From: Kutzneria buriramensis
Lineage (GTDB): Bacteria > Actinomycetota > Actinomycetes > Mycobacteriales > Pseudonocardiaceae
DNA length: 64,000 bases
Direction of reading: 5' to 3'
Assembly: GCF_003387475.1 (NCBI RefSeq)
Contig: NZ_QUNO01000001.1
Location: 434,001 to 498,000 of the forward strand
In this document: positions 45,366 through 62,586 of the stretch, in pieces
How the letters are laid out: each line of letters starts with the position of its first letter
Numbering within the stretch: position 1 is the stretch's first letter
Translations under genes and position numbers: made by a program
The notes under the pieces: model-generated
Told to the model about the DNA's origin: nothing
Database searches by the model: none
Seen by the model: only the letters and a program-made list of their open reading frames with translations

Positions 45366-45446
45366 GCCAGGTTGCCCGAGTGGCCAAAGGGAGCTGACTG
45401 TAAATCAGCCGCGAAAGCTTCGGAGGTTCAAATCCTTCACCTGGCA
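45366..45446 (+). tRNA. tRNA-Tyr (GUA)
   Basis: An 81-nt class II tRNA with long variable arm. Acceptor GCCAGGT (45366-45372) pairs with ACCTGGC (45439-45445), discriminator A at 45446, CCA not encoded. The anticodon stem GCTGA/TCAGC encloses loop CTGTAAA, giving anticodon GTA; the T arm is GGAGG-TTCAAAT-CCTTC. The 3' part from 45398 on is identical to a second copy at 62536, the far end of an integrated element that regenerates the tRNA. Confidence 0.96.
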
Positions 45447-45448
45447 CG
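45398..45448 (+). repeat. attL, 51-bp direct repeat in tRNA-Tyr
   Basis: Runs from the anticodon loop (CTGTAAATCAG) to two bases past the tRNA end and is identical over 51 bp to 62536-62586. Sequences diverge directly on both sides. Tyrosine recombinases of AICEs commonly use the anticodon-to-3' end of a tRNA as attB. Confidence 0.93.
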
Positions 45449-45454
45449 TGCACT

Positions 45455-45500
45455 GAGAACGGCCCGGTGACCTGCAACAACAGGTCACCGGGCCGTTCTC
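45455..45500 (+). terminator. Hairpin terminator behind tRNA-Tyr, brought by the element
   Basis: Perfect 20-bp stem (45455-45474 with 45481-45500; GAGAACGGCCCGG...CCGGGCCGTTCTC) with a CAACAA loop, 8 bp after the tRNA. It lies inside the element and could also stop transcripts leaving int. Confidence 0.9.
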
Positions 45501-45568
45501 TTACTGTCCGGCTGCGTCCGCCGGAGTCCGGTCATCTACGGGTGGTTCTGCCAAATGCCTGCCCAAGT

Positions 45569-46945
45569 TCAGGCGGCGTCGTTGCCCTTGGGCTTGGGCG
45601 TGAGTAGAGCCTCGACCCGGTCAAGCGCGGCCTGCTCGCCGCCGTCGAAGCACTTCGCGTACGTGTGCAGCAGCACGCGCAGGCTGTTGCCCGCCCACTG
45701 AGCCACCCGGGTGGGCTCAACGCCAGCGTTGAGCCACGTCGACAGGCACGCGTGACGAAGGTCATAAGGTCGCTTGGCCAGCGGTGAGGCGAACACCTCG
45801 GGTGTGAATGCCTTCTCTCGTGCCTTCGCCCAAGCGTTGCTGTAGACCGTGCTGCCAAGCCTGCCGCCACGCGCTCCACGGAATAGGTAGCCCTCCCGAG
45901 TGGTGCCGTACCTCTTGATGTGTTGCCGGAGCATGCCCGTCAGTTCAGGACAACACGGGACTGTCCGGCTGTCGGTCTCCGCACGGTGTTTCAGGCTCCG
46001 CTCTTCGTTCGCCGTACCGCTATCCGTCCATTGGGCCGCAACTTCTGGAGCGGCCTTCTCAAGGTGGATGGTGCCCCAGCGTCCCTCAGGCAGCGTGAGA
46101 ACCTCCTCCCGCAGGTTCAGGGCCTCTTCGGGCCGGAGACCAGCGAAGTAGATCGCGGCGAAGAACGCTACGAGACGCTTGTCCACCTCCTCCATGGCGA
46201 GCAACAGCGTTCTGGCCTGCACCGGGTTGGCCACGGACCGCCGGTCGACCTGTGCGAGCGTTGCCTTGGTTTTCTTCGTCTTCACCTCATCGAGCGGGTT
46301 GCCGTCCAGCAGCTTCTGCTCGATCGCGATTCCGATCATGTTCCGCAGTGTCGTGCGTCGCAGGCGGATTGTGTTGAGCGAAGCCCTTGCTCCGCCCACG
46401 TTCAGCTCAAACGAGGCGAGTAGCTTTCGGAGCACTTCCGGGTTGCCTAGGTCGCCAACTGGTCGACTCGTTCGCTTCAACCATGCAATCGTTGCCGTGA
46501 GATCCGCCGGAGTTTCAAGAATGGCGTTCTGTGGGTTGAGCGTCCAGCGCAGTGCCCGGTTGAGCGCGTCGACGCTCGGTGCGCCGCGTTCGGTCGACAC
46601 CATGGCGCGCGTTATCGGGATGAGGGAGTCCACGGTGCTTCGTCGAGACTTTGGGGCCAACTCCCACCATCTCGCATCCATGTATCTAGACGCGAATTCG
46701 TAGCAGGACATGCTCGGTGTTTCGGTGCGGAGCATCTTGAGGGGAAGCCCCTCGGTTGTGTCGAACGCCTCGCCGTCACGTGCGGCTGTCACCAGCTTCG
46801 AACGGAAGCTCTCGGCGAGAGCGTTCGTCGCGAACGGCTCTTTGAACTCCTTCCCGTCGACCGTCCACCGAACGTAGTGGGTCGTCTTTCGTTGGCCCTT
46901 GTAGACGAACGTCTTGCGGATGGTGACCTTGTAACTCGTTCCCAT
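45569..46945 (-). CDS. int: Tyrosine recombinase / integrase
   Basis: Site-specific recombinase of 458 residues from ATG 46945. The N-terminal arm- and core-binding parts precede the catalytic domain with Arg271 (YFAGLRPEEALNL), Arg397 (RPYDLRHACLSTWLNAG) and nucleophile Tyr429 (LLHTYAKC); the usual HxxR His is Tyr and the AGHS His is Asn, both common in actinobacterial integrases. Its end faces attL 120 bp away. The ATG shares one base with the xis stop (TGATG), so the two are coupled. Confidence 0.93.
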   Translation of the reverse strand: MGTSYKVTIRKTFVYKGQRKTTHYVRWTVDGKEFKEPFATNALAESFRSKLVTAARDGEAFDTTEGLPLKMLRTETPSMSCYEFASRYMDARWWELAPKSRRSTVDSLIPITRAMVSTERGAPSVDALNRALRWTLNPQNAILETPADLTATIAWLKRTSRPVGDLGNPEVLRKLLASFELNVGGARASLNTIRLRRTTLRNMIGIAIEQKLLDGNPLDEVKTKKTKATLAQVDRRSVANPVQARTLLLAMEEVDKRLVAFFAAIYFAGLRPEEALNLREEVLTLPEGRWGTIHLEKAAPEVAAQWTDSGTANEERSLKHRAETDSRTVPCCPELTGMLRQHIKRYGTTREGYLFRGARGGRLGSTVYSNAWAKAREKAFTPEVFASPLAKRPYDLRHACLSTWLNAGVEPTRVAQWAGNSLRVLLHTYAKCFDGGEQAALDRVEALLTPKPKGNDAA

Positions 46946-47133
46946 CAGGCGGCCACCTCGCAAGAGTCGTACCACGTGTCAACGTCTCGGCGGTCAATCC
47001 GGAGTTGCCCGTTGGGCAGCTTCCGGCAACGTGGTCCGAGTCCCTTCGCCTTCCACTCGTAGAACGTTGACCGCGACACCTTCGCTTCCTTGCAGAACTC
47101 AGCCACCGTCAGCAGCTCTCGGCGCGTGCTCAT
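46945..47133 (-). CDS. xis: Excisionase-like HTH protein
   Basis: A 62-residue protein with a MerR/excisionase-type winged helix: LLTVAEFCKEAKVSRSTFYE, then WKAKGLGPRCRKLPNGQLRI, then DRRDVDTWYDSC. Length and position directly before int are typical of AICE xis, which directs excision. Start and stop share bases with its neighbours, so it is co-translated with rep and int. Confidence 0.88.
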   Translation of the reverse strand: MSTRRELLTVAEFCKEAKVSRSTFYEWKAKGLGPRCRKLPNGQLRIDRRDVDTWYDSCEVAA

Positions 47134-48740
47134 CAGCTGTCCCCCTGCGTCGCGGTCGGGTTGGTGAAGTCCGTAACTGGTGTAACTGCCGTAACCTCGC
47201 TGGCCAGGCGGTTACACGTGCCCCCGCTGGTTACAGATGGATCCGTAACCGGCGGCGGCGTGGCCGAGTCACCGGTTACGGATGAATCTGTAACCGCTCC
47301 GCTGTCCGTAACCGTCTGACCTGCTCGGTTACGGCAGTTACGGGAGTTACGGACTTTGGCGGGCAGGTAGCGCGACCATGCGTCGGTCAGCCCCGTCTGC
47401 GCTTGGCCGCCGGTCGTCTCGTAGGTGACGTAACCGCGCGCCTTGCTGCCCGTGGCCGTGTCGAATGTGACGGAGCGGACGCCATAGCGCGCCAACTCAG
47501 CGGCCAGCTTGCGAGCGTTGAGCGGCTTGCTGTCGCCCATGTCTGCCCACTGCGATTCGTCGAGTGCGCACAGCGCCGAGAGGATTTCCGCGCTGGCGAG
47601 CCGATCGGTGTCGCGTTCGGTGAACAGGCCGTAGAGGTCGGCCAGCAGCAGCACGCCGGTCGACAGTTCGGCGTCGGCGGCTGTGTCGACGACGAAGTGA
47701 GTGCAGGCCGCGCGGGTCTTCTCCGGCCAGTCGCCGCCTGCTTCGTCGGCCAGGGCGAGCAGTGGGCGCCAGATCTCCGCCGCGCGGTTCCGCACGCCGT
47801 CGGGCCGCTCCGGTCGGGCGGTGGCCACCTTGTCGGCGACGCTATTCGCCCACCCTGCCAGTTCCTCGCGGAGTGGCCGGGCCTCGCGCTCGACATCCTC
47901 CTCCATGAAATCTTCAATTTGTTCGTCTTCGCTGGCCTTGCGCATGTGGATGGTGATGGCGCGGGTCGTGATGGTGGCCGGCATTCGCCCGGCGATACCG
48001 GCCAGCGCGACCGGCGCGTACACGGGAAACCGCTGCACCTTCATTGCCTTCGCGTCGCCAACGCACCGGGACACAGTGGCGGTGCGCTTGTATCCGGCGT
48101 TGAGTAGGCCGCGAAGGTCTTCGTTGTTGCCGCCTCCCTTGCTGGTGAATACGGCGTCAATCTCGTCAAACAGCAGCGTCACCGGTTCGTCGAGTAGCAG
48201 CCGGAAGATCGCGGCCGTGGTGATGGAGATGGTCATTTCCGGTTTGTGGACGAGGTATTGGCCGATCTCCAAAACGCGCGTCTTGCCGCTGCCCGGTTCG
48301 GCTGAGGACAGGATCAGCCGGGGCGTGACGTACAGCCGGTCGGCGATGTGGGTGTGGGCGTACCACAAGGCCACGACTGTGGCGCAGTGCTCGTTGGGGA
48401 AGCGGATGAACCTGTTCAGGAACGTCACCACGCTGTCGAGCACCTGGTTGCCGGGCCGCTTGACCGAGCCCGGCGGCGGAGCGCCCAGCCAGGATGCGAT
48501 CGGCGTGTCCGGCATGGCTTCTGGGAGCTCCGGGTCTGGCGCGTGGCCGGCGTCGTCCGGCTGCGCGGCACTGCGCGCGGCCAGCCATCGGGTCTGGCAG
48601 TCCTCCGAGCAAAAGTGGTCGGACACCGACAGCGGTCCGCCGCAGGTGTGGCAGCGGGCGGGCGTGGTCGTGATGATGTCCGTGTCGGTGCCGATGACGT
48701 CGTCGATCGCGGTGAGTGTGGTGTCGACTGTGGTCGTCAT
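47133..48740 (-). CDS. Rep-like P-loop ATPase with N-terminal zinc finger (DUF3631-like)
   Basis: A 535-residue protein. Residues 30-48 form a zinc finger (CHTCGG...FCSEDC), Walker A is EPGSGKTR (about 148-155) and Walker B LLFDEIDAVF (189-198), within a DUF3631-like domain (NAGYKRTATVSRCVGD, ALAGIAGRMPATI, TRAITIHMRK). Such proteins occupy the replication-gene place in AICEs of the pMEA type. The last ~60 residues are Val-Thr-Asp repeats forced by a GTAAC repeat array in the DNA. ATG 48740 has GGAGA upstream. A replication-initiator role is inferred from position. Confidence 0.75.
   Translation of the reverse strand: MTTTVDTTLTAIDDVIGTDTDIITTTPARCHTCGGPLSVSDHFCSEDCQTRWLAARSAAQPDDAGHAPDPELPEAMPDTPIASWLGAPPPGSVKRPGNQVLDSVVTFLNRFIRFPNEHCATVVALWYAHTHIADRLYVTPRLILSSAEPGSGKTRVLEIGQYLVHKPEMTISITTAAIFRLLLDEPVTLLFDEIDAVFTSKGGGNNEDLRGLLNAGYKRTATVSRCVGDAKAMKVQRFPVYAPVALAGIAGRMPATITTRAITIHMRKASEDEQIEDFMEEDVEREARPLREELAGWANSVADKVATARPERPDGVRNRAAEIWRPLLALADEAGGDWPEKTRAACTHFVVDTAADAELSTGVLLLADLYGLFTERDTDRLASAEILSALCALDESQWADMGDSKPLNARKLAAELARYGVRSVTFDTATGSKARGYVTYETTGGQAQTGLTDAWSRYLPAKVRNSRNCRNRAGQTVTDSGAVTDSSVTGDSATPPPVTDPSVTSGGTCNRLASEVTAVTPVTDFTNPTATQGDS
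47173..47350. repeat. Intragenic iteron-like array of GTAAC/GTTAC motifs
   Basis: Twelve copies of GTAAC or its complement GTTAC in 178 bp, at 47173, 47182, 47191, 47211, 47230, 47245, 47275, 47290, 47308, 47328, 47337 and 47346. Many extend to CCGTAAC or GTTACGG. They lie inside the 3' end of the Rep-like gene. An origin of replication with iterons within the initiator gene is the leading reading. Confidence 0.65.
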
Positions 48741-48759: not shown

Positions 48760-49215
48760 TCATGCGGCGGCGTGGCCTTCGCAGGGCGGATCGCTGTAAC
48801 CGGTGCGGACCCACCGAGCAGCGGCGACGGGGTCGAACGGCGGGATCGGACGCCGTGGCGGAGCGGCGCGACGGCGTTCAAGTTCGGCGTGCGCCGGCCC
48901 GGTGGCCGACCACTCGTGAGCGGCGGACAGCTCGCAGGCGGCTGCCTTGAACCGCTCGGCGACGGCCCGGTCGATGGCGTCCAACTCGGCACGCAGTCGG
49001 CGAGCGGTCGCGGCCGAGGTGGCCTCACTGAGCCACGCCAACGCGCTGGTCACGACGGCCGCCCACTTGCGCGGGTCGTCGTCGGCCAGCCTTGACCAGT
49101 CGGGGCTACCGGCCAGCGGGATCGGCCCCGCCTGGGTGGCGGCGGCCAGCAGCGGCGCAGCCCAGCGGCGTACGGCCTGCGGCGTGCGCTCGATCGCAGC
49201 GCGGGTGTAGTGCAT
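48760..49215 (-). CDS. DUF2742-like AICE protein
   Basis: A 151-residue, mostly helical protein. LADDDPRKWAAVVTSALAWL resembles the conserved core of DUF2742 proteins found in actinobacterial prophages and AICEs. The C-terminal part is Arg/Pro-rich. ATG 49215 overlaps no neighbour; the Rep-like gene starts 19 bp downstream. Function unknown. Confidence 0.65.
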   Translation of the reverse strand: MHYTRAAIERTPQAVRRWAAPLLAAATQAGPIPLAGSPDWSRLADDDPRKWAAVVTSALAWLSEATSAATARRLRAELDAIDRAVAERFKAAACELSAAHEWSATGPAHAELERRRAAPPRRPIPPFDPVAAARWVRTGYSDPPCEGHAAA

Positions 49216-49415
49216 GGTGATCAGCCCTTTCGACGCGAGCCATCACGTCGGCGTCGATTACGGTGAGTGGCTGGTTTGCGGCGAGCGGCGCCGCGCGGGG
49301 AGGCATGGGGGACCCTCTCCCGCGCGGCGTTTCCCGGTGTTTTCGCAGGTCGGGAGCGTGTGGCTCCCCACCTCCCCGTTACGGGGTTTGCCCTGCTCAA
49401 CTGCGGGGAGTCGGG

Positions 49416-49445
49416 GCGGGGAGGGCGTTGGGGAGCCCTCCCCGC
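49416..49445 (-). terminator. Hairpin after traB
   Basis: GCGGGGAGGGC (49416-49426) / GCCCTCCCCGC (49435-49445), 8-nt loop, in a 261-bp gap that is otherwise rich in GGGGAG/CTCCCC runs and has no convincing gene. It may separate transfer from replication genes. Confidence 0.55.
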
Positions 49446-49476
49446 ACTAGGCGTGACTCCCCGGCTTTCTCCCCGC

Positions 49477-51744
49477 CTACTCCCCGCCGTTCTCGTCACG
49501 CTCGGTGAGCGCGTCGCGGACGTCGGTCAGCCGCACGGTCATCACTCCGCCGTGCGCCTTGTACGGCTCGACCCCGACGATGCCCAACGCGTCGGACAGC
49601 TCCTTCGCGGTCATGCCCTCGTAGGCGTCCGGGCACAGCTCGGCCAGCCGCTGACGGATGACCTCGGTGCGCACGCGGGTCTCTTCCTTCATCGCCTCGT
49701 CCACATCGGCCAGCAGGTCCCGCGCGGGCGCGGCCGGCTCGGTGCTGCCCGAGGTGTGCCGCCGGCCGCGCAGCTGCTTGGCGCGGTCGGCGATCTCGGT
49801 CGCGCCGTCGCCGTCGATGAAGTGCGTGCGGATGGTGATCGAGGACTGCCCCGCAGGCAGCGGGACACCGTCCCCGGCGACCACGAGCGTGCCCTTGTCC
49901 AGGCCCTGGCGCAGCTTGTGCGGTGCCGCGCCACCGTTGATGGCCTTGTCGCCCAACGCCATCCGCGCTTCAGCCTCGGTGCCCACGACCAGCGACGCGC
50001 GGATGTGCGCGCCTTCGCGGACCAGCTTGGGCAGGTTCTGATCGGTCGGGTTCTGCGTGCCCTGCCACAGGATCACGTTCACCGCGCGCCCCTGGTTGTG
50101 CAGCTTGCGCGCGGCCATGAAGTACCGCGAGGTGTTCTTCGACCCGCCGTAAGGGCGCTTGTCCTCGCCGATGGCCGGGCACATGAACGCCTGCTGCGCC
50201 TCGTCGACGACCAGCACGATCGGGTGGAAGCCCGCGGCGGAGCGGGCAAGGTCGCGGGTGACGCCGTTCTTGTGGGTCTCCGGGTCGACCGCTTCCAGCC
50301 GACGTTCCATCTCGGCCACGCCCCACTCCAGCATGAGCGTGGCCAGGATGACGTGCTCATCGGTTGGCCCCTCGATCAGGGTCGTGGCCAACTCGTCGAA
50401 CATGTGCCAGTCGCCGATGCCCTTGAGGTCGGCGATGTGGAACTCCACGGTCCGGTCGAGGGCCAGCCACAGAGCCAGCGCCCGCAACGCGGCCGTCTTG
50501 CCCTGGTTGGACAGACCCGTGCAGAGCAAGTGCCGCTGCAACAACGAGATCGCGGCTGCCTCGCCCCGCAGGTCCTCACCCCAGGGCGCCCGCCCGGTGT
50601 ACATGTCGGCGGTCATCGACTCGTCGATCACCAGCGGGGACGGGCCGATCGGCTCGTCCAACGCGCCCGAGTCGGCGATCCACAGCCGCACCGTGCGCGC
50701 GGCCTGCGGCTTGGTCATGAACAGTTCGTGCTCATGCCGGTTGAGGTTCTCCGCCAGCTTCGCGCGCCGCGCCAGCACCTCATCGGTGGCGACACCGGAC
50801 GGGAGGGTGACGTCCACTTCGACGCCCCGCCCGGCGATGACGATCGGACCGAGCAGCGACGCGCCCGCGTCGCCCATGTCCTTGATGGCCTTGCGCAGCT
50901 CGGCGATGCCCAGGTCCCGCAACGCGGTGACCACAATGGACGGGGTGATCGGCACACCGACGTCGCTGCCGGTGTTCTGCTTGGCCAGCCACTTCGGGGC
51001 GATCTCGGCCTTGCGCCCGATGTTCCACAGCAGCCCCACACCCACGCACGGCGCGGCGATCAGCACCGGCATGGCCAGCACCGATACCAGCCACGCCGTG
51101 AACCGCACGGCCTGAATCGCGGCGGTGATCGGACCGAGAACCGCGGCTATGTCCCCCTCAGCGATCGCGAGCACGATGCCCAGCGCGAACAGGAATACCG
51201 TCAGCGACAAGGTGCTGATCACGGTCGCCTTGACCACGACGGCGGGGGCCTGGAGCATCGCCATCCGCCTGCGGTGCCGGCGTTCACGGGCCAGCTCGGC
51301 CCGCTGCTCCCACTCGGCCACCCGTTCCAGGTCTCCGGCAGCCTCGGCCGCGCGCATCATCCGTTCGTAGCGGGAGTTGGTTTTGGCCTCCCACACCCGC
51401 ACAGCGACCCGGGACGCTCCGACGGGGACGTAGAGGAACAGACTGCGGGCAACTGCCTTGCCGGCTCTGCGGGTCCGGTCGTGGGTGGCGACCACCCGCA
51501 CGACTCGGACCACCTGGCCCGGTGCGCGCCGGGCGACCTGCTGTGCCGCCATCCGTAGGTCCACGGCGGCGGACTCGGACGGCGTGACAATCTCGCTGTC
51601 GTAGATCTTCGGGGCCAGCGCCTTGCCCGGGTCTGTGGCATCGCTGACCTGCGGCCGCAGCACGCGAACGTTGTCCGGCCTGGCGTCCTGGATCGAGGTG
51701 TTGTCGTCCGGGCTTGGGGACCCGGTCACGGTGGTGGTGCTCAT
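49477..51744 (-). CDS. traB: TraB-type FtsK/SpoIIIE DNA translocase
   Basis: Conjugative DNA pump of 755 residues. Two transmembrane segments lie at about 171-197 and 214-240. Walker A is TGLSNQGKT (409-417), Walker B IVLVVDEAQ (509-517), with the FtsK-like ADLKGIGDW between them. The C-terminal ~80 residues (AELCPDAYEGMTAKELSDAL, GVEPYKAHGGVMTVRLTDVR) form a winged helix like the domain that recognises clt repeats in Streptomyces TraB. AICEs move double-stranded DNA between hyphae with this single protein. It is 12 bp after the Spd-like gene. Confidence 0.9.
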   Translation of the reverse strand: MSTTTVTGSPSPDDNTSIQDARPDNVRVLRPQVSDATDPGKALAPKIYDSEIVTPSESAAVDLRMAAQQVARRAPGQVVRVVRVVATHDRTRRAGKAVARSLFLYVPVGASRVAVRVWEAKTNSRYERMMRAAEAAGDLERVAEWEQRAELARERRHRRRMAMLQAPAVVVKATVISTLSLTVFLFALGIVLAIAEGDIAAVLGPITAAIQAVRFTAWLVSVLAMPVLIAAPCVGVGLLWNIGRKAEIAPKWLAKQNTGSDVGVPITPSIVVTALRDLGIAELRKAIKDMGDAGASLLGPIVIAGRGVEVDVTLPSGVATDEVLARRAKLAENLNRHEHELFMTKPQAARTVRLWIADSGALDEPIGPSPLVIDESMTADMYTGRAPWGEDLRGEAAAISLLQRHLLCTGLSNQGKTAALRALALWLALDRTVEFHIADLKGIGDWHMFDELATTLIEGPTDEHVILATLMLEWGVAEMERRLEAVDPETHKNGVTRDLARSAAGFHPIVLVVDEAQQAFMCPAIGEDKRPYGGSKNTSRYFMAARKLHNQGRAVNVILWQGTQNPTDQNLPKLVREGAHIRASLVVGTEAEARMALGDKAINGGAAPHKLRQGLDKGTLVVAGDGVPLPAGQSSITIRTHFIDGDGATEIADRAKQLRGRRHTSGSTEPAAPARDLLADVDEAMKEETRVRTEVIRQRLAELCPDAYEGMTAKELSDALGIVGVEPYKAHGGVMTVRLTDVRDALTERDENGGE

Positions 51745-51756: not shown

Positions 51757-52608
51757 TTACTGCTCGGTGCTGTGTTGCAGGTGGGCCAGCGCCGCGCCGA
51801 AACCGAGCACGACAACCGGCAGGCAGGCGACGAACGTGGTGATTGGCCACGGGGCGTGGGTGACCCCGCCGGCGGACATCAGGTGGTAGGCGACCTGTCC
51901 GAGGCCACCCAGGACCAGCGACCCGATTGCGGACGTGCGGGCGAACCGCTGCGCCCGGCGACTGCCGACCCGCGCGAGCCAGACCCGCATGGCATAGGCG
52001 GCGTAGGTCTCAACGCCGATGGGCAGGGTGATCGCGGAGTTGAGCGTCAAGCCGTCGGCGATGCCGGGCAGCGGGTGGACCAGGCCGAACCCGGTCATCT
52101 CGCCGAGTCCGACCCACCCGGACCAGATGGCCACGAACGCGCCGACCGCGAGCAGCAGCAGCGGCCAGCGCCGCACCTTGTGGGCGGGCTCGGCCGGCGG
52201 AACGGTCGGCGGCGTGCCCGGGTCTGCGTCGGTGCTGACCTGCGGCGTCACCTCGGTCGGGTTGTCGGCCGGCGACTCCTCCAGTTGCCGGTCGATGTCC
52301 GGGTCCGCGCTGGTCTCGCTGGCGGGCTCGGCCGGCTCGTCGTCGGTGTCCGGCTCGCTGCCGGCGTCGGTGCCGGTCGGGTCGGGCACCAGGTGCAACG
52401 GCCGCTCCGGCGGGGTCGCCGGCTCAGTTGGGGCGGTCGGGTCGAACCCGGTCTCGGCCAGCGCGGCCAGCACCGTGTTGGCCTTGTCCGCGCCGATCCG
52501 GAACCGCTGCTTGATCTTGTTGCGGGACGGGAGCTGTCCCAGCTCAGTGGCCCAATCGCGGACGGCGGGCACCAACTCGTCAACCGGGCGCGGGAATGCG
52601 CTACTCAT
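51757..52608 (-). CDS. Spd-like transfer-associated membrane protein
   Basis: A 283-residue protein. Residues 1-55 look like a small helical DNA-binding-type domain ([20 protein letters not shown]); 60-150 are an acidic Pro/Glu/Asp linker; the rest has four transmembrane helices (from [20 protein letters not shown]). This form precedes traB in many AICEs and plasmids, where spd genes affect plasmid spread within the mycelium. GAGGAGG lies nine bases before ATG 52608. The Spd name is by position and topology only. Confidence 0.7.
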
Positions 52609-53631: not shown

Positions 53632-54024
53632 TCAGTGATCAGTAGGGGTGTGATCCCGGTCCGGCAGTCGCTTCTTGGCCGGAGGGCTGTCGGGCCGGGG
53701 CGGTTCCTGGGGTGTTGAGCGAAATCTGGGCGGATGCTGGCCAGTCCTGGCCAGTGGCGTCACGTCCTCTGGTGTCGGGACGTTGTCGCTGGTTGTGTGG
53801 CGCGTGGACCCGGGCACACCGCATGTCTGGGTCTGGGGGTGGGCTCCGGTCTGGTAGCCGAGGACGCGTCGGCCGGAACCCGCCTTGAGTGGTGTGACTG
53901 GTTGGGTGATTCCGGCCTGGGGCGGGCGCCCCCCATCGCCTGCCCGGGTTTTGGGTGGGTGCTGGTTCGAGTGACCTTGGGGATCATCGAGCCGGTACCC
54001 ACCTGGGGGCGTCGGATGTGCCAT
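53632..54024 (-). CDS. Pro/Thr/His-rich hypothetical protein
   Basis: A 130-codon frame of polar low-complexity composition without any domain or membrane segment. Its ATG shares one base with the stop of the preceding gene (TGATG), which favours translation; codon third positions are less GC-biased than those of neighbours, which speaks against. It may be a spacer holding a regulatory or clt site. Confidence 0.35.
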   Translation of the reverse strand: MAHPTPPGGYRLDDPQGHSNQHPPKTRAGDGGRPPQAGITQPVTPLKAGSGRRVLGYQTGAHPQTQTCGVPGSTRHTTSDNVPTPEDVTPLARTGQHPPRFRSTPQEPPRPDSPPAKKRLPDRDHTPTDH

Positions 54025-54488
54025 CAGAACGGCACCATCGCGGTGACCAGTGCGACGGCGAGCACCACCAGGCCGAGCACGAGCAGGTTGACCGCGCGAC
54101 GGATGCGGATGAACTTGCGGCAGGCGATCTGCGCCAGGCTCCGCACGTCGTACACGACGTCAACGGGGTGCGCCGTCTTGTAGTACTTCAGCAGCTCGTA
54201 CGGCTCGCTGGTCAGCGAGTGCAGCCAACTGCCCGGGGCAGCGCCGTTCAGGTTGGGGCGGAGAGCCGCGAGCAGCAGAAGCACGCTCAGCCCGATCGGC
54301 AGAGCCGACGTCCACAGGGCAACCGTCGCGACCGGCGGCAGGCTCCGCCCGGTCAGGGCGATGATGCCGGCCAGGGCAGCACCGACCAGAGACAACAGCG
54401 TTGTGGCCTTGCTGTCCGCGCGTCGCAGTTCATCGCGGACCTGGTCGCGGGCGGCCAGCAAGCCAGTGGGGATCGTGGGCTCGGTCAT
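54024..54488 (-). CDS. Pycsar-effector-like two-TM protein (DUF5706-like)
   Basis: 154 residues. Residues 8-30 (LLAARDQVRDELRRADSKAT) match the conserved helix of the Pycsar TM effector family, followed by a helix pair (TLLSLVGAALAGIIALTG; VALWTSALPIGLSVLLLLAA), a cytoplasmic segment with YELLKYYKTAHPVDVVYDV, and a last helix near the C-terminus. In phage defence, PycTM opens or disrupts the membrane on cCMP or cUMP. In actinobacterial mobile elements such proteins occur without a known cyclase. It sits in the transfer operon with 1-bp overlaps. Confidence 0.65.
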   Translation of the reverse strand: MTEPTIPTGLLAARDQVRDELRRADSKATTLLSLVGAALAGIIALTGRSLPPVATVALWTSALPIGLSVLLLLAALRPNLNGAAPGSWLHSLTSEPYELLKYYKTAHPVDVVYDVRSLAQIACRKFIRIRRAVNLLVLGLVVLAVALVTAMVPF

Positions 54489-54811
54489 TACGCGGCCTCG
54501 TTCCCGGCCTGCGTGGTCGTGGTGGTCGTCAGGTCGCTGTGGACGCTCAGCACGCGCACGGCGTTGCCGAGGGTGCGCTGCGCGATACGGCGGTCCCGGC
54601 GGGCGCGGGCGGAGCCGTCGAGCAGGGACGTCGTGGGTTCAGGGCGCGGCTCACGCAGCTGCGCGAACTCGCTGGAAAGCTTCGGGTGGCTGATCAGGTA
54701 GTGGTACTCGGCGTCCAGCGTGGTCAAGGTGCCGGACGCGTCGATCGCGGCGATGTCGTCGGCGGTCGGCTCGGTGATGTCGTCGATGCCGGGGAAGTCG
54801 TTGACGTGCAT
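54488..54811 (-). CDS. First gene of the transfer operon, hypothetical
   Basis: 107 residues: an acidic start (DFPGIDDITEPTADDIAAID) resembling small AICE proteins of the DUF6284 kind, then a basic C-terminal half (ARARRDRRIAQRTLGNAVRV). ATG 54811 is favoured; GGGAG lies about 11 bases upstream. Its TAA overlaps the next ATG. The structured element at 54853-54937 is in its leader. Confidence 0.55.
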   Translation of the reverse strand: MHVNDFPGIDDITEPTADDIAAIDASGTLTTLDAEYHYLISHPKLSSEFAQLREPRPEPTTSLLDGSARARRDRRIAQRTLGNAVRVLSVHSDLTTTTTTQAGNEAA

Positions 54812-55589: not shown

Positions 55590-55619
55590 TTGGCTCGTCA
55601 GAGGGAGGCGTTGACTCAG

Positions 55620-56459
55620 ATGGACTCGGACCTCGGGAACGTCCCAAGTTCGGGCAAGGCGACATCACAAGCCCTGGCGCACCACCTGCGCACGGAGATC
55701 GAAGCTGGCCGGCTCGCCCATCGCGCGCCCCTGCCGACGTCGAAGCAGCTCGCCAAGCAGTACGACACGTCGCCGGCGACGGTCAGCCGGGCGATGGACA
55801 TCCTCGCGGCGGAAGGGCTGATCATCGGCAAGCCGCGTGCGGGTCGCATCGTCAACTACCCGCCGCCTGAGGAGCGAAGTGCGCCGAGCAGGCCAAAAGT
55901 GCTGCTCATCGGTGGTTATGCGGGGAGTGGCAAGACCGAGCTCGGCCGGATCCTCGCCCGGCTCACGCACTGGCCGATGCTCGACAAGGACACGACCACG
56001 CGCGCGGTCGTCGAGCAGGCATTGGAGCTGCTCGGCCACTCGCCGCATGATCGTGAGTCGGACCTGTACCGCACCTCCATCCGGCCAGCCGAGTACGAAG
56101 CGCTCATCGCCGGCATGATGGAGAACGTCGAATGTGGCACCTCTGCCATCGTCACCGCGCCGTTCGCCCTCGAACTGGCGGACAAGACGTGGTGCGACCG
56201 GACGGCCGCGAACCTCGCGCGCCTAGGCGCTGACCTGCACGTCATCTGGGTTCGGACCGACGCCGAGTCGATGCGCCGGTACATCCGTCACCGTGGCGCG
56301 GCGCGCGACGCCGCCAAGCTCGCGGACTGGGATGCCTGGGTGGCGGGCCTCAACCTGGCGTTCGAGCCGGCGATCGAGCACACCGTTATCAACAACTCGT
56401 CTGACGCTCGGCCATTGCAGGAACAGGCTGAGCAGCTGCTCGCTACCGTGACGGCGTGA
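55620..56459 (+). CDS. GntR-type wHTH fused to P-loop kinase (AAA_33-like)
   Basis: 279 residues. The N-terminal ~70 form a GntR winged helix (SQALAHHLRTEIEAGRLAHR, SKQLAKQYDTSPATVSRAMD, AAEGLIIGKPRAGRIV). The rest is a kinase: Walker A GGYAGSGKTELGR, then LDKDTTTR, TAPFALELADKTW and an IWVRTDAESMRRYIRHRG lid. It resembles Zeta-toxin or small-molecule kinases. ATG 55620 has GGGAGG 11 bases upstream; TTG 55590 would be a leaderless option. It may sense and phosphorylate one ligand. The stop overlaps the dehydrogenase GTG by 4 bp. Confidence 0.78.
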   Translation: MDSDLGNVPSSGKATSQALAHHLRTEIEAGRLAHRAPLPTSKQLAKQYDTSPATVSRAMDILAAEGLIIGKPRAGRIVNYPPPEERSAPSRPKVLLIGGYAGSGKTELGRILARLTHWPMLDKDTTTRAVVEQALELLGHSPHDRESDLYRTSIRPAEYEALIAGMMENVECGTSAIVTAPFALELADKTWCDRTAANLARLGADLHVIWVRTDAESMRRYIRHRGAARDAAKLADWDAWVAGLNLAFEPAIEHTVINNSSDARPLQEQAEQLLATVTA

Positions 56460-57397
56460 GCATCCTGTTGCGTGTGCTGGTCAGCAACGAGGCAGAGGAC
56501 CAGGTCGGCGTCAGCCTGCTCGACCAGGTGTCTGGCGTCGAAGTCATCACCTACGACCCGACCGCTACCAGACTGTCTGACCAGCAGCGCACCGCCGATG
56601 TCTTTCTGCCGCCTTACCGGGGCAGCGAGCGCCCGATCCCGCTGGTCAAGCAGTTGCCGAACCTTCGCCTCGTGCAGCTGCTCAGCGCTGGCATCGACGA
56701 GTGGAGTCCGCACGTCCCGCACAGCGTGATGCTGGCGAACGCTCGCGGCGCCCATGCCGGCCCGGTCAGCGAGTGGATTCTCTCCGCGATCTTGACCACG
56801 TACCGCCGCTGGCCTGCGCTTATTCGCTACCAGGACCAGCACACCTGGGCTCACCGGCGACCAGGCACCGACTTCGAGACGTTGAGCGGCAAGCGCGTGC
56901 TCGTGCTCGGGGCCGGCGCAATCGGAACCGCGGTGACTCGCTTGCTGCCGCCGTTCGGCGCGACCGCCACCCTGGTTGGCCGGACCGCCCGTGACAGCGT
57001 GCGTGGAGTCGATGAACTCCCCGAGATGGTCAGCGAGCACGACGTCGTGGTCGTCATCTGCCCACTCACTCCCGACACCGAGGGCCTGATCGACGCCAAG
57101 ATCCTGGCCGCGATGCCGGACGGCGCACTACTCGTCAACGCCGGCCGGGGCCGCATCGTCGACACCGACGCCTTGGTGGCCGAGCTGGCCGCGCAGCGCC
57201 TGCGCGCCGCGCTCGACGTCACCGATCCTGAGCCTCTGCCGGCGGACCACCCACTGTGGAGCTGCTCAGGCCTCATCGTCAGCCCGCACTCAGCGCGGAC
57301 CGTGCCAGGCACCAACCGACTCTGCTACGAGGTCGCAGCCGAACAGGTCGCCGCGCTGGCACGGGGAGAGACCCCGTCGAACGTCGCGGCTCGCTAA
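56456..57397 (+). CDS. D-2-hydroxyacid dehydrogenase family protein
   Basis: NAD(P)-dependent oxidoreductase, 313 residues. The Rossmann motif is VLVLGAGAIGTAVTRLL; catalytic Arg lies in VNAGRGRIVD, Glu in DVTDPEPLPADHPLW and His in VSPHSARTV, so the active site is complete. Members reduce 2-ketoacids or oxidise D-2-hydroxyacids, including 3-phosphoglycerate. Translational coupling with the GntR-kinase suggests both act on one metabolite, the kinase product or substrate. The compound is unknown. Confidence 0.85.
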   Translation: MSILLRVLVSNEAEDQVGVSLLDQVSGVEVITYDPTATRLSDQQRTADVFLPPYRGSERPIPLVKQLPNLRLVQLLSAGIDEWSPHVPHSVMLANARGAHAGPVSEWILSAILTTYRRWPALIRYQDQHTWAHRRPGTDFETLSGKRVLVLGAGAIGTAVTRLLPPFGATATLVGRTARDSVRGVDELPEMVSEHDVVVVICPLTPDTEGLIDAKILAAMPDGALLVNAGRGRIVDTDALVAELAAQRLRAALDVTDPEPLPADHPLWSCSGLIVSPHSARTVPGTNRLCYEVAAEQVAALARGETPSNVAAR

Positions 57398-58099: not shown

Positions 58100-58933
58100 A
58101 TGACCGACCCGAAGGGCGTGGCGCTCCCTGACTGGGCATGGCAGCGTCCCGAAGTCCGTGACGCGCTCCGCGCCCGCGACATGGCCGCGCTGTTCAAGGC
58201 GGTGCAGCAGTACAGCGGTGCCAGCCAAACTCGCATCGGCCGCGCTACCGGCCTGCTTCAGGGCCGTGTCAGCGAGATCATCGCCGGTACCCGCAAGGTC
58301 ACCACGCTTGAGCTCTTCGAGCGCATCGCCGACGGCGTCCAGATGCCCGACGACGCGCGAATGCTGCTCGGACTCGCACCCCAGGACCCTGCTGGGCTCG
58401 ATCACCTCAGTGCCTCCGGTCGGGCCGAGCTGATCGCGGTCTACCCGTCTCAGTCCGCCGCCCTGCCCGAAATCCGCGATCTTGCCGGCAAGGCCACCAC
58501 TGTGGACGTGCTGGCCGTACGCGGCCTGGGCATCCTAGGAATGAACGACTCGGTCCTTCGCCCCAGCGTGCGCAAGGCGACCCCAGTCGTCCGCGTGCTG
58601 CTGCTCGATCCCGACAGCGAAGCAGCCCACCGCAGGGCCTCCGAAATCGGCGAGTCGTACACGACGTTCAGCGGCGGCATCCGTATGTCAATCGAGCGCC
58701 TCCGCGAACTCGCCGCCGACGGCGTGCAAGTCGAAGCGCATACCTACGCGCTGCTGCCCACCTGGCGCGTCATCGGCCTAGACAGCACTCTGTTCGTGTC
58801 CGCGTTCGGCGAGACCCACGAAGGCCACACCTCGCCGATGTACCGAATCGCCGGATCGCCGCATGGCGCACTGCACCGCGGCTTCCGTAGGTTCAGCGAC
58901 GAGCTGCGTCGCACCGCGCGGCGCGTGGTCTGA
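58100..58933 (+). CDS. HTH protein with DUF5919/PLD-like C-terminal domain
   Basis: 277 residues. An XRE-like helix-turn-helix spans about 30-75 (YSGASQTRIGRATGLLQGRV, SEIIAGTRKVTTLELFERIA). The C-terminal 180 residues (VDVLAVRGLGILGMNDSVLR, VRVLLLDPDSEAAHRRASEI, MSIERLRELA, EAHTYALLPTWRVIGLDSTL) match DUF5919-type domains, thought to be ligand sensors related to phospholipase-D-like folds without the HKD motif. Thirteen bases later begins the CYTH gene, so the two probably form one operon. Confidence 0.78.
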   Translation: MTDPKGVALPDWAWQRPEVRDALRARDMAALFKAVQQYSGASQTRIGRATGLLQGRVSEIIAGTRKVTTLELFERIADGVQMPDDARMLLGLAPQDPAGLDHLSASGRAELIAVYPSQSAALPEIRDLAGKATTVDVLAVRGLGILGMNDSVLRPSVRKATPVVRVLLLDPDSEAAHRRASEIGESYTTFSGGIRMSIERLRELAADGVQVEAHTYALLPTWRVIGLDSTLFVSAFGETHEGHTSPMYRIAGSPHGALHRGFRRFSDELRRTARRVV

Positions 58934-58946
58934 CCGGGAGGCGGCC

Positions 58947-59513
58947 GTGACGGTCGAGGCAGAACTCAAGGCACGACTGCGCAACCCTGAGCAGGTGCGC
59001 CAACGCCTCGCTGAGCGAGCACCCGCCGAGCACTCCGTCTACGCCGATCACTACTTCGATTACCCGGACCGCCGGCTCAGCGCCGCCGGCTACGAGGTGC
59101 GGCTCCGTACGATCACCGACGATGCCGGCAATTCGGGGTCGTTGCTGACGTTCAAAGAACCGGCAGTGGACGCAGCCAGCGGCTCGAAGCCGGAGCATGA
59201 GACGCCCGTAGATGACCCGAACGTGGTCACGAAGCTGGTCACCGTGCTGGGGTTGGTCGAGTTGATCGCATTCGAGAAGCGGTGTACCAACTTTCGGTTC
59301 ACTGAGCACGGCCGAGACCTTGTGGCCACAGTGGTTGAGGTGCCGGAGTTGGACGGTGAGACCTTCGTTGAAGTCGAGACGCTGACCACCAACGACGATG
59401 TGGATGACGCGTTGGTCGTAGTGCGCTGCATGCTGAACGAGTTGGGAGTCAGTGCTACCGAGTTGACCACTGAGACGTATACGGGAGCGGTGGCAGCGAA
59501 GCGGCATGTTTGA
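58947..59513 (+). CDS. CYTH-domain protein (class IV adenylate cyclase-like)
   Basis: 188 residues forming one CYTH tunnel fold. The start VEAELKARL has the ExExK signature (EAELK); YFDYPDRRLSAAGYEVRLRT supplies paired basic residues, LTFKEP and FEKRCTNFRF further Lys/Arg, and VVEVPELDGETFVEVET the acidic metal ligands. CYTH enzymes are class IV adenylate cyclases (CyaB), thiamine or inorganic triphosphatases; which applies here is open. GTG 58947 is fixed by GGGAGG five bases upstream. Confidence 0.82.
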   Translation: MTVEAELKARLRNPEQVRQRLAERAPAEHSVYADHYFDYPDRRLSAAGYEVRLRTITDDAGNSGSLLTFKEPAVDAASGSKPEHETPVDDPNVVTKLVTVLGLVELIAFEKRCTNFRFTEHGRDLVATVVEVPELDGETFVEVETLTTNDDVDDALVVVRCMLNELGVSATELTTETYTGAVAAKRHV

Positions 59514-59525: not shown

Positions 59526-59541
59526 GGGCCAGTGCTGGCCC
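59526..59541 (+). terminator. Hairpin after the CYTH gene
   Basis: GGGCCAG-TG-CTGGCCC (59526-59541), 12 bp past the stop. Short stem, no T tract; moderate support. The remaining sequence to 59900 shows nothing recognisable and drops in GC. Confidence 0.45.
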
Positions 59542-59900
59542 ATGGGACCGAGCCACCGGGTGGTGGCCAACGACGTGCCCACATGAAGCGTTGGGAGGGG
59601 TTGCCCCCGGCGGTCCGACCCCTACTCCACCGTCCTGAACAGGGTAAATAAGGTCGAGCGGATCCTTAGCTCAGCATCCAGCAGACCTTCGCGGTTGCGT
59701 GATGCTGACGCCAGTCGTCGGAGTATTCGGGCAGCGGTGGCGGACCGTGTTACACAGGGTTAGTCATGGTTACATTCTGTTGTTTCCGATAACCTAGCAG
59801 TAGGGTGTACCGTAAGGCTGGGTTTAGTGTCTCCTTTGACGGTGTCGGTGCGGAGTTGTCCTCGTCGGCAATCAGCTATTGCGTATGAGGTAGACCGGGG

Positions 59901-60524
59901 ATGGATGTTCCAAACGATGGTCGATTCAAAAGGGGAGACATTGTTTTGGTTCATTGGAGAGGTGTGCGAATACCGGCGCGTGTTATTTGTTGTGTGGAGT
60001 CTCAATCCTATCGACTGGAACAACGCTGGTTTGAGATGCGCCAAAAGGGATCACTTGCGGCTAATCTTGAAATTAAACCTCCCAACGAGTCGAAGAGGCA
60101 CGCGGTTAGGGTTACCTTGAACCGCCCGCAACGGGAAAGTATTATCTGGCGGTTTCGCTTCTTCCATGCTGGCATGCCGCTGTATGAAGAGTTCTTGGCG
60201 AATGATGTCCAACTTCATGCGCGCGACCCTTCCTGGGATCCGTTTGGCATTATGCCCTATGCTTCTCCTGAGGTGCACCGTAAACGTGGCACCTATCTAC
60301 CTGGTGAATACTATGAACCTGACGATCCCGTTTGGGTTTGGGAAGAAAATCGTTGGCATCCAGCGGTGGTGGTTGCCGTTGAGCGCTGGGTTTCCGTACG
60401 TTATCTCGACAACTTTCGAGATCGTAAGCGAAATTGCTCTAAGAGTTATCGCACATGGCAGATCTGGCCGGTAATCGGCGAGTTGTCAGAGGTCTTTAGA
60501 GCCGATATTGAGCGCTTTCTGTAG
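59901..60524 (+). CDS. AT-richer orphan protein with two SH3/Tudor-like segments
   Basis: 207 residues, not recognised. Two segments look like related small beta barrels: RGDIVLVHWRGVRIPARVIC near residue 11-30 and DPVWVWEENRWHPAVVVAVE followed by WVSVRYLDN near 140-170, the pattern of Agenet/Tudor/SH3-like domains. Between them is a basic, aromatic-rich region (RFRFFHAGMPLYEEFL). GC is about 50 percent and codons end often in A or T, unlike all neighbours, indicating recent transfer from a lower-GC source. Confidence 0.6.
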   Translation: MDVPNDGRFKRGDIVLVHWRGVRIPARVICCVESQSYRLEQRWFEMRQKGSLAANLEIKPPNESKRHAVRVTLNRPQRESIIWRFRFFHAGMPLYEEFLANDVQLHARDPSWDPFGIMPYASPEVHRKRGTYLPGEYYEPDDPVWVWEENRWHPAVVVAVERWVSVRYLDNFRDRKRNCSKSYRTWQIWPVIGELSEVFRADIERFL

Positions 60525-60944
60525 ATCGCGCCTTGGTGCTCAAGGGTATGTCGATTGGCCGGCAAGTTCTTGGGCGTCAATTGGCGCTGCCACTCTGGCC
60601 CCCCTTCATGTGTGATCCACTGCTCGGGTCTAGACCGCAACTCGTCCTGCAAGGCCCTCTCGAACATATGGTCACGATTAGGCAACGAAAACTGCATTCT
60701 AATGTCTTCTCACGTCTTCTGTGTTACGTGAGCGCGCGTTTTTTGGGCCATTGGTTCCGGAGTCTGCGCTGCTCAGGCGCTGTTTTTCGTGAAGGAAAGC
60801 AGCTTTGGAGGACTGTAAGGCCGGGAGGATGACGGCAAGTAGGAACGCGATCTAGCGTATCTGCCCGTAGCGGTTACATCCGTTAGTCCGTTCTGTCGAC
60901 TACCCCGATTGGGATAGTGCGGCAATTACTGAAGCGGAACGCGC
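60525..60944. other. Gap without supported gene
   Basis: 420 bp, GC still low at first and rising to the right. Short frames exist on both strands but none has a ribosome-binding site, domain or consistent codon use. Confidence 0.5.
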
Positions 60945-60973
60945 GGAGGCCCCGGGTGCAACCGGGGGCCTCC
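60945..60973 (+). terminator. Hairpin upstream of duplicated gene copy A
   Basis: GGAGGCCCCGG (60945-60955) / CCGGGGGCCTCC (60962-60973), one bulged G, TGCAA-type loop. A closely similar hairpin (61805-61835) precedes copy B, so it belongs to the duplicated unit. Confidence 0.7.
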
Positions 60974-61035
60974 AGCGACACGCCATACGCACCTTCCGAC
61001 CCTCTCCAGTGGATCAAGAACGAGGTACTGGGTCA

Positions 61036-61401
61036 GTGACGATACGACACATGCGGCCGCTGAAAAGGTCAGCAGTGGCAAGCACCCCGCCGGAAGTGGC
61101 TGGCGGCACATTGATGCAGCCACGGGTCAGCGCTGATGAAGCCCGGGAAGGCGATCCGACGACGATGCTAGGCATGGCTGATCGAGTCCTTTGGGGCGGC
61201 CGCCGCTGCAGGCACCTGCTTCTTATCGTCGGACTAGTGATCGTCGGGATCGTCGCTGTCCTCGTGATTGCGCCATCACTGGCTCTGTACCTCGGTTGTG
61301 CAGGGGGTGGAGGTCGCCTCGTGCGGCGGTCGCTGGTTCGGAGTAACGCGCCACCGGCGGTGTCACTCCGAGTAGTCAAGTTTCCTGGGGTCTTAGGTTA
61401 G
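61036..61401 (+). CDS. Single-TM small protein, copy A
   Basis: 121 residues from GTG 61036. A polar start (VTIRHMRP, then DPTTMLGMADRVLWGGRRCR) is followed by a strong transmembrane helix (HLLLIVGLVIVGIVAVLVIA) and a basic end. It is paralogous to copy B at 61895. Base differences between the copies over the helix fall mainly in third codon positions, which supports this strand and frame as coding. The C-terminus beyond residue ~100 differs. Function unknown. Confidence 0.6.
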   Translation: MTIRHMRPLKRSAVASTPPEVAGGTLMQPRVSADEAREGDPTTMLGMADRVLWGGRRCRHLLLIVGLVIVGIVAVLVIAPSLALYLGCAGGGGRLVRRSLVRSNAPPAVSLRVVKFPGVLG

Positions 61402-61568
61402 TTTCCTGGTTGGATTCCTGGCACCGACCGCGTGAGCCGAGCATGATCCAGATCGTTGAATGCACTTCGCGGCGTGAGAGGAAGGCCGTTGTGGGCGGTA
61501 CGAAGGGGAGTCCTCACGGCGGGAGGACCGCCGGAGGCGTGACCCCGTCGTCGGGCGTCGGGCGTGTC

Positions 61569-61637
61569 TTGTCCACAGGTTGTCACCCTTGGTCACCGTG
61601 TCACCCTTTGGTCACGGTCGCCGTGTCACGAGTGACC
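61569..61637. repeat. DnaA box followed by six GTCAC/GTGAC motifs
   Basis: TTGTCCACA at 61569-61577, then GTCAC at 61582, 61592, 61600, 61611, 61625 and GTGAC at 61632. Several extend to GTCACC or GGTCAC. Such a cluster on a conjugative element could be a second replication site, a clt-like TraB target, or an operator. Confidence 0.45.
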
Positions 61638-61773
61638 GACGGGTATTTCCTCTTCTTCCGGTGCCGGCTGGGGCGCGCAGGTCGAGTAGCTTGTGGCGCG
61701 CGATGGCCCTCGGTGCGCGTCGGCTGTGCCGGAATCGTCGAAGCATTCCGTTCGGCTGACTAGCTGATTGGGC

Positions 61774-61800
61774 GTTCTGCCCCCTGCTCGGGGGCAGAAC
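61774..61800 (+). terminator. Hairpin terminator
   Basis: GTTCTGCCCCC (61774-61784) / GGGGGCAGAAC (61790-61800), perfect 11-bp stem, TGCTC loop. Sequence from 61402 to here has no supported gene besides the repeat cluster at 61569. Confidence 0.75.
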
Positions 61801-61804
61801 GAAC

Positions 61805-61835
61805 GGAGGCCCCCCGGTTGCGTCGGGGGGCCTCC
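61805..61835 (+). terminator. Hairpin upstream of duplicated gene copy B
   Basis: GGAGGCCCCCCG (61805-61816) / CGGGGGGCCTCC (61824-61835), perfect 12-bp stem. Four bases after the previous hairpin, so two stems stand in tandem. Confidence 0.75.
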
Positions 61836-61894
61836 AGCAACACGCCGTACACATCCCCGACCGTCTCAGTGATCAAGAAAGTGGTACAGCGCCA

Positions 61895-62215
61895 GTGACG
61901 ATACGACACACGCGACCGGCGAACAGGTCGACAGTCACAACGACCTCGCCGGACGTGGCCGGAGGCACGTTGACCCAGTCCCGGGTCAGGCCCGACGCCG
62001 AGGAGGACGATCCAACAACCATGCTCGGCATCGTGGATCGAGTTCTCCGGGACGGGCGCCGCTGCTGGCACCTACTTCTCATCGTTGGTCTAGTGATCGC
62101 CGGGGTTACCGTTGTTCTGGTGATTGCGCCATCGGTCGCCTTGTACCTCGGGTGCGCGTGGGGCGGTGGTCGCCTCATGCGACGTCGGCACGAGCAGAGC
62201 CTCGACAAGTCGTAG
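61895..62215 (+). CDS. Single-TM small protein, copy B
   Basis: 106 residues from GTG 61895, paralogue of copy A: VTIRHTRP start, DPTTMLGIVDRVLRDGRRCW, then the helix HLLLIVGLVIAGVTVVLVIA and a short basic tail (RLMRRRHEQSLDKS). The unit of hairpin, about 60 bp of leader and gene was duplicated some 860 bp apart. Near the right end of the element; function unknown. Confidence 0.62.
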   Translation: MTIRHTRPANRSTVTTTSPDVAGGTLTQSRVRPDAEEDDPTTMLGIVDRVLRDGRRCWHLLLIVGLVIAGVTVVLVIAPSVALYLGCAWGGGRLMRRRHEQSLDKS

Positions 62216-62535
62216 GCAGCGAGACAGGGGTGCGGACTCACACGTCGTCTCAGTTGCCTGTTGTCCCTCCGCGTGCACTCAAGTTCGGCGTGGTTCGCAC
62301 CCCGGCCTGACCTGCTGTGGAGCGGCAGGTTGGACTCGAACAGATGGCCGCGAGCGGTGGTTCGCAGACCTCGAAAGCGTGTGAGGGAGACCCTCCTGCG
62401 TTGGCTGGGTGTCTTACGCAAGGTGGGGAGAGCTAGCCGCGCTGCCGGCGACCAGGTGGCTGTTGTGCCGGATACCCGCCCAAGTTGGCGGGGGATCACG
62501 GATAACCGCAGCTCAGGGTGGGTCTGTGCGGCGGT
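62216..62535. other. Gap without supported gene before attR
   Basis: 320 bp at the right end of the element. No frame with ribosome-binding site or recognisable product, and no clear repeat. Confidence 0.5.
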
Positions 62536-62586
62536 CTGTAAATCAGCCGCGAAAGCTTCGGAGGTTCAAATCCTTCACCTGGCACG
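62536..62586 (+). repeat. attR, 51-bp direct repeat (tRNA-Tyr 3' half)
   Basis: Identical to 45398-45448. It carries the anticodon loop, variable arm, T arm and 3' acceptor strand of tRNA-Tyr without the 5' half, so it is not a functional tRNA. Right boundary of the element. Confidence 0.93.

Follow-up and report, generated by a model that had tools for sequence, protein, structure and literature searches.

What kind of mobile element occupies a tRNA-Tyr gene of Kutzneria buriramensis, how would it start its own replication, and can it still move? The element lies in a window of 64,000 nucleotides (RefSeq assembly GCF_003387475.1, contig NZ_QUNO01000001.1, positions 434,001 to 498,000, forward strand), and all coordinates below are positions in this window. 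We consider it probable that it is a complete actinomycete integrative and conjugative element (AICE), in which the integrase Int and the excisionase Xis would excise a circle; RepAM, as a self-loading AAA+ initiator helicase, would open this circle through two facing hexamers on an array of twelve mirrored sites; TraB would bind the repeats just 3' of its own gene, a candidate cis-acting locus of transfer (clt), and move double-stranded DNA through the mycelium with Spd-like proteins; and Int would re-insert the element at tRNA-Tyr.

The element, 17.2 kb long, is enclosed by identical 51-bp direct repeats (45398-45448 and 62536-62586), and the identity ends there on both sides; the only longer direct repeats listed across 19 kb belong to a local duplication at 61 to 62 kb. 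Inside the repeats, a 21-bp arm-type pair (45549 and 62466) has no further match in the 64 kb at up to five mismatches. The left flank was searched for in 60 genomes, the source genome (G000) included, and was matched in 59. Six genomes of the same genus were compared: in three of them, G001, G004, and G005, the flanks are contiguous at one core, leaving an empty tRNA-Tyr site. Another of the six, G006, holds a different, related element of ~15.9 kb that is bounded by exact 51-bp repeats identical to those here and likewise flanked by a similar arm-type pair, and G002 has a ~2.4-kb remnant whose int is degenerate, along with a second core that carries four mismatches; in G003, also counted in the six, the site is on a fragment and uninterpretable. 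The sites of G001, G005, and G006 were read base for base. In G011, which belongs to another genus, a variant core (six differences from the 51-bp core) occurs in two identical copies 16.7 kb apart, the second of which adjoins an int homologue. Moreover, the element has a GC content of 66.5%, versus 70.5% in the window to its left, with a stretch of 51 to 57% at 59.5 to 61 kb. The first-pass annotation had proposed a complete ~17-kb AICE with exact 51-bp att repeats and had staked this in part on relatives showing an empty tRNA-Tyr site; identical repeats with int, xis, DUF3631, and traB between them, and the empty sites themselves, bear it out. Direct repeats at a specific site and an empty site in relatives, the general marks of an AICE, are both present.

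Gene content places the element more precisely. According to the available part of the screen by Ghinet et al. (2011; PMC3218068), AICEs are recognized by a tyrosine (PF00589) or serine integrase, a replication gene of the RepSA, RepAM (PF12307), or Prim-Pol kind, and an FtsK/SpoIIIE protein (PF01580). All three markers were found here, at 27.4 bits for PF00589, 180 bits for PF12307, and 24.2 bits (cut-off, 24) for PF01580. What had been called a Rep-like ATPase is indeed an ATPase of replication, but it is the DUF3631 protein RepAM, a known AICE initiator, so that the element is of the pMEA300 rather than the pSAM2 type and is less unusual than had been implied. The expectation that its cargo would be unlike that of the well-known pSAM2-type elements held, and its replicon differs from pSAM2 too. 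Judged from its sequence, the element is a whole AICE of the known Int-Tyr/RepAM/FtsK-TraB kind. Its components are widespread in the family, with Int matches in 126 and DUF3631 in 92 of 249 genomes (source genome included in both counts).

Whether the element can still move is a separate matter, which concerns Int above all. In 30 Int loci examined, tRNA-Tyr is present in 27, the source genome included, and R281, K329, Y404, R407, and Y439 are kept in all 30; the earlier remark that the catalytic residues look intact holds for these five residues and fails at position 430, which we take to be the H333 position of lambda Int. Here 27 of the 30 loci have histidine and three have asparagine (G000, G006, and G027, the last with an internal stop in its Int match). 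Because of this asparagine, mobility is, as far as the protein sequence can tell, slightly doubtful, and "probably still mobile," as had been written, overreaches. A stranded element that entered via Int and whose excision is now blocked by N430 or other decay is somewhat unlikely, although the exchanged residue, the decay of the copy that G002 has at this site, and the assembly all point that way: across the 65 contigs (11.97 Mb), the 51-bp core is found nowhere but at attL and attR, which means that neither a free circle nor a second attB was assembled. On the other hand, the int of G006 also encodes N430, yet exact att repeats bound a different traB and cargo there, and in our element the arm-type sites are intact, as are the int, xis, repAM, and traB reading frames. 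The pair formed by these two elements, with the same site and integrase and different traB genes and repeats, amounts to a natural swap experiment.

A candidate for the place where replication begins was found at the 3' end of repAM. Twelve GTAAC/GTTAC sites are arranged there in mirror order, with gaps of 9,9,20,19,15,30,15,18,20,9,9; thirteen such words fall within 260 bp of the gene, against a maximum of three in 60 simulated 64-kb sequences. In relatives whose RepAM is ~33% identical (e.g., L058, L063, L064, and L066), CGTCCC replaces CGTAAC at gaps of 9,9,21,18,14,31,14,18,21,9,9, and L124 has CGGTAA at gaps of 9,9,23,18,12,45,12,18,23,9,9. By a single window rule applied to 53 loci (30 high-scoring, 20 low-scoring, and those of G000, G006, and G019), clusters above shuffles were detected in 24 of the high-scoring loci, in six of the low-scoring ones (one of which, L125, has five sites only), and in the remaining three, compared with 3 of 53 controls taken farther up the genes; at least eight sites were present at none of 30 int and one of 20 traB 3' ends. 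Among 32 arrays with at least eight sites, 30 are mirrored in opposite orientation (L084 and L128 are not), and the mirror agreement extends to 90% of sites, versus 41% after gaps and orientations were permuted. The first array site lies between -12 and +38 nt from the RY[LC]P motif. That the array is a mere coding repeat is unlikely, because 8 of the 32 arrays extend beyond the stop codon once outlying end sites are trimmed (9 of 29 untrimmed, three of them via one outlying site, with the three arrays lacking the RY[LC]P motif dropped).

The array was also detected beyond this set. Eighty RepAM genes were collected from IMG/VR, one of which runs off the record end; 34 of the 79 scored have a cluster above shuffles, several of them mirrored with unrelated letters, for instance AGGGGC at gaps of 9,42,54,42,9 (L236) and TCTACA or GCTACA at gaps of 8,43,17,43,8 (L216 and L223). 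On a RepAM tree, the labels for the iteron letters cluster, with 6 changes against a shuffled mean of 10.4 (in this test, G019b, whose array is outside the scanned stretch, was mislabeled "none," and the branches of G000, G006, and G019b are long); we conclude from it only that the letters follow RepAM clades. When RepAM was searched against the plasmid collection, three records were returned, none of them named pMEA300. In two small circular Streptomyces plasmids, the densest 6-mer cluster of the entire record is at the repAM 3' end, where 13 and 12 CCGCTA sites occur (at most five in shuffles), with end gaps of 9,9 and 9,9 in one plasmid and 28,9 and 9,9 in the other. These arrays are an independent check, and they favor reading the repAM array as an origin.

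The RepAM model consists of an AAA+ core, a winged-helix-like order of elements at residues 361 to 438, and a disordered tail whose codons overlap the array; the best 50 rows of a structure comparison with VIA are minichromosome maintenance (MCM) helicases or MCM-containing complexes; a PDB sequence search with the RepAM profile gave no match, and none to MCM by sequence. Alternatively, RepAM may be a rolling-circle initiator and the mirrored array a nicking origin or control site, which we judge unlikely even though RepAM was predicted to be such an initiator, with putative pC194-like nick sites, in the part of Ghinet et al. (PMC3218068) available to us. By eye, alignments of 13 and 41 RepAM sequences show no His-hydrophobic-His (HUH) pair among their invariant and near-invariant columns, and a diverged motif may be present in the poorly aligned N terminus; the invariant columns do include the Walker A Gly-Lys and a Walker B-like Asp-Glu, the model has an AAA+ core, and the array shows the dyad expected for two facing hexamers.

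A second cluster of repeats is associated with traB. Eight CGGGGAG copies lie around and after its stop codon (at most four in shuffles), and in the G006 element, whose TraB is 32% identical overall, a different repeat, CAGGGACC, occupies the same place; the C-terminal part of TraB can be aligned among relatives. A motif with a GGGA core, chosen on 32 loci, is more frequent here than in any other window in 23 loci (L111, one of the 23, has two copies only), and it was therefore tested only on 20 others, which were hand-picked and came in part from genomes of the first set. In these held-out loci it tops all windows in 13, with a mean of 5.9 versus 0.37 per window (L266, with a misplaced stop, is counted as a miss). 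In some of the seven misses, CTAAC or CGAGTTA repeats occur at the traB 3' place (e.g., seven copies in L265), and CTCCCCA (6) and GGTGTCA (7) repeats stand there in the two Streptomyces plasmids; thus, position varies less than sequence, and we regard these traB 3' repeats as a candidate clt. The loci that have CTAAC, CGAGTTA, or GGTGTCA repeats instead of the GGGA core (L256, L257, L263, L265, and L267; L270) perhaps represent other TraB specificity classes. It is very unlikely that the repAM array is itself the clt read by TraB and not an origin: according to the available part of the literature TraB does recognize 8-bp repeats at clt, yet many traB genes have their separate cluster, of other sequence, on their 3' side, and no FtsK/SpoIIIE match was found in 31 of the 34 cluster-bearing IMG/VR records (many of which are fragments), so the array tracks RepAM and not the transfer genes.

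Taken beyond this one element, the repAM array as an origin leads to a broader proposal, which we put forward only tentatively: RepAM elements, a widespread class of plasmid-like elements in actinobacteria for which rolling-circle replication has been assumed, would instead use an MCM-like AAA+ helicase that loads itself, in the form of two hexamers facing each other, onto a mirror origin of twelve sites within the codons for RepAM's disordered C terminus; the layout would be kept while site letters and helicase specificity change in concert; and TraB with its 3' repeats, exchanged separately, would set transfer specificity. The shared mirrored array hints that RepAM-type elements begin DNA copying otherwise than assumed. 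Besides the asparagine in Int, several results weigh against these views. No cluster above shuffles was found in 45 of the 79 IMG/VR genes or in 14 of the 20 low-scoring RepAM loci, one of which, L123, has a RepAM 76% identical to ours, while many array bearers are only ~33% identical. The loci are related and some come from one genome, so the counts are not independent. Foldseek ranks chains of RuvB, ORC, NrS-1, and PriRep1 first for the RepAM model and an MCM chain at 17, and the term "MCM-like" therefore derives from the second aligner, VIA. At traB, the GGGA-core motif fails in 9 of 32, 7 of 20, and 2 of 2 loci, though some carry other repeats there, and a motif-free 7-mer count has its best window at this place in only 3 of the 20 held-out loci. 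As far as the literature was searched, nothing on a mirrored origin of RepAM came up, and DUF3631 is named in 1 of 5.39 million papers. The origin of pMEA300 is said to have been placed inside repAM by te Poele and colleagues (Microbiology, 2006); in that case, its location is already established for one element, and what is new is the layout, its spread, and the helicase reading. Taken alone, the element adds a further member to the known RepAM AICEs; what merits the attention of specialists is the wider pattern at RepAM origins and at the clt sites of AICEs.

Two cargo slots vary between elements with the same ends. At 53701-54539, a PycTM protein stands here and a DUF3307 protein in G006, and at 57634-62462, an XRE-CYTH pair, a 207-aa protein, and a duplicated small gene correspond to a GntR/UTRA regulator in G006. 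The 207-aa protein has no match in the plasmid collection or in the other 199 of 200 genomes of the order, its single-sequence structure model is useless (predicted local distance difference test, 33), and its gene is possibly a recent import. The duplication (61012-62184) comprises two copies of a block of ~310 bp, 77 to 79% identical, with a small open reading frame in each. A Pycsar defense system combines a PycTM or PycTIR effector with an adjacent class III nucleotide cyclase. Here the effector is present, with no match in the plasmid collection or the G006 element, and a Pfam scan of 20 element proteins detected no class III cyclase; the only cyclase-like protein is the CYTH protein, 4.4 kb away. 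That the two form a Pycsar-like defense in which a class IV cyclase replaces the class III enzyme is highly unlikely: both are on the element and neither is matched in its G006 sister, but they are on opposite strands, the other three genomes with CYTH relatives (4 of 394 in the class, source genome included) lack a PycTM match, and an XRE gene directly precedes CYTH in 7 of 10 CYTH loci examined (L044, L047, L048, L049, L055, L056, and L057), which include four of eight plasmid matches. With no co-occurrence and this frequent neighbor, a single defense system was rejected as the principal explanation. The XRE-then-CYTH pair, a portable two-gene cassette, is found again on plasmids as well as in the genomes of other genera, and our guess is a regulator-enzyme pair acting on nucleotides or polyphosphate. 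The chance that the whole is a prophage or phage satellite is very small, for although IMG/VR records also carry DUF3631, the element encodes an FtsK-type TraB and Spd-like genes, and a PHROGs scan of ten of its proteins matched the integrase and the FtsK-like protein only.

The remaining features are collected in Table 1. Directly after tRNA-Tyr, a perfect 20-bp inverted repeat (45455-45500), almost unchanged in the G006 element, is probably a terminator carried on the left end of the element, and an Rfam scan returned the tRNA alone, with no match at 60.5 to 62.5 kb. To the right of attR, ~1.9 kb (62705-64615) does not align to the flanks of the same-genus relatives and represents a separate insertion or deletion; part of a DUF5753 protein without a helix-turn-helix (HTH) domain is located there (63381-63839). 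Among the IMG/VR loci L169 to L248, many of them 8 to 12 kb long, many have DUF3631 with a 3' repeat cluster and no FtsK match, and these short records are possibly phage satellites or small plasmids sharing the replicon.

Table 1. Features of the element and its insertion site, in window coordinates (TRS, TraB recognition sequence)
Feature	Position	Strand	Support
tRNA-Tyr(GTA), host integration site; 3' part is the attL core	45366..45447	+	ARAGORN; Rfam tRNA, 54.6 bits
attL core	45398..45448	+	51 bp, identical to attR; empty attB in G001, G004, G005
Left arm-type site, candidate Int/Xis binding	45549..45569	+	
int, tyrosine recombinase	45569..46975	-	PF00589, 27.4 bits (cut-off 27.1); R281 K329 Y404 R407 N430 Y439
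xis, 62-aa HTH excisionase-like protein	46945..47133	-	HTH_17, 4.9e-9
repAM (DUF3631), AAA+ replication initiator, 535 aa	47133..48740	-	PF12307, 180 bits; AAA+ core in model
Mirror-ordered array of twelve GTAAC/GTTAC sites, candidate origin	47173..47350		Over repAM codons 464-523
DUF2742 protein, replication region	48760..49215	-	PF10888, 33.2 bits
CGGGGAG repeats (8) at and just 3' of traB stop, candidate clt/TRS	49296..49486		
traB, FtsK/SpoIIIE DNA translocase	49477..51744	-	PF01580, 24.2 bits; phrog_1358, 3.3e-22
Membrane protein, Spd-like by position only	51757..52608	-	No family match; 67% identical relative in G006 element
Three small transfer-region genes	52769-53098, 53098-53460, 53352-53615	-	Latter two with relatives in G006 element
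PycTM, orphan membrane protein of the Pycsar effector family, cargo	54024..54488	-	PF18967, 41.3 bits; PADLOC PycTM, 1.5e-12
Small conserved gene upstream of PycTM	54488..54808	-	78% identical relative in G006 element
GntR regulator fused to P-loop kinase-like domain	55590..56459	+	PF00392, PF13671; 84% identical in G006
D-2-hydroxyacid dehydrogenase	56456..57397	+	PF02826, 158 bits; 87% identical in G006
XRE-type regulator of XRE-CYTH pair, cargo	58100..58933	+	PF13560, 24.8 bits, below cut-off 27
CYTH-domain protein (class IV cyclase/triphosphatase-like), cargo	58908..59513	+	PF01928, 58.5 bits; cyaB model, 44.5 bits, below cut-off 57.95
207-aa protein without detected relatives, cargo	59901..60524	+	DNA of 51-57% GC
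Local duplication, two related small open reading frames (61009-61401, 61895-62215)	61009..62215	+	77-79% identical blocks
Right arm-type site	62466..62486	+	Direct repeat of left site, 4 mismatches
attR core	62536..62586	+	51 bp, identical to attL

Compared with known systems, the element shares the AICE type, int, and an FtsK-like Tra protein with pSAM2, which uses RepSA where our element uses a DUF3631 RepAM (no RepSA profile was run). With the RepAM-type AICEs pMEA300, pMEA100, and pSE211, as far as they are described in the available part of PMC3218068, it has in common a tyrosine integrase, a DUF3631 RepAM, and an FtsK/SpoIIIE Tra protein, and it differs in its cargo and in its own tRNA-Tyr site with an N430 Int; the mirrored array at the repAM 3' end does not appear in the same part of that text. 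The Streptomyces plasmids NZ_CP108827.1 and NZ_CP108973.1 (13.5 and 14.3 kb) have int, HTH, DUF3631, FtsK/TraB, DUF6284, and Spd-type genes in similar order and a repAM 3' array, with RepAM 42 to 43% identical over 68%; unlike the element, they were deposited as circular plasmids and have a primase/polymerase gene and other repeats 3' of traB. The TraB proteins of the Streptomyces plasmids pSVH1, pIJ101, and pJV1 are FtsK-like, as here, and are described in the literature available to us in part as recognizing 8-bp repeats through a C-terminal HTH, whereas the repeat letters in our element are CGGGGAG. With MCM helicases, RepAM would have only the fold in common, at 10 to 16% identity. By analogy, SaPI Rep and SCCmec Cch2 may offer the nearest parallel in mechanism: in the consulted part of PMC7581432, they are self-loading helicases with C-terminal DNA binding, with iterons directly downstream of the gene and apparently with two hexamers. 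RepAM would resemble them as a candidate self-loading helicase with 3' iterons, and PriRep1 structures are among its Foldseek matches, but it belongs to another sequence family (DUF3631), and its array is in mirror order and either sits within the rep gene's 3' end or straddles it.

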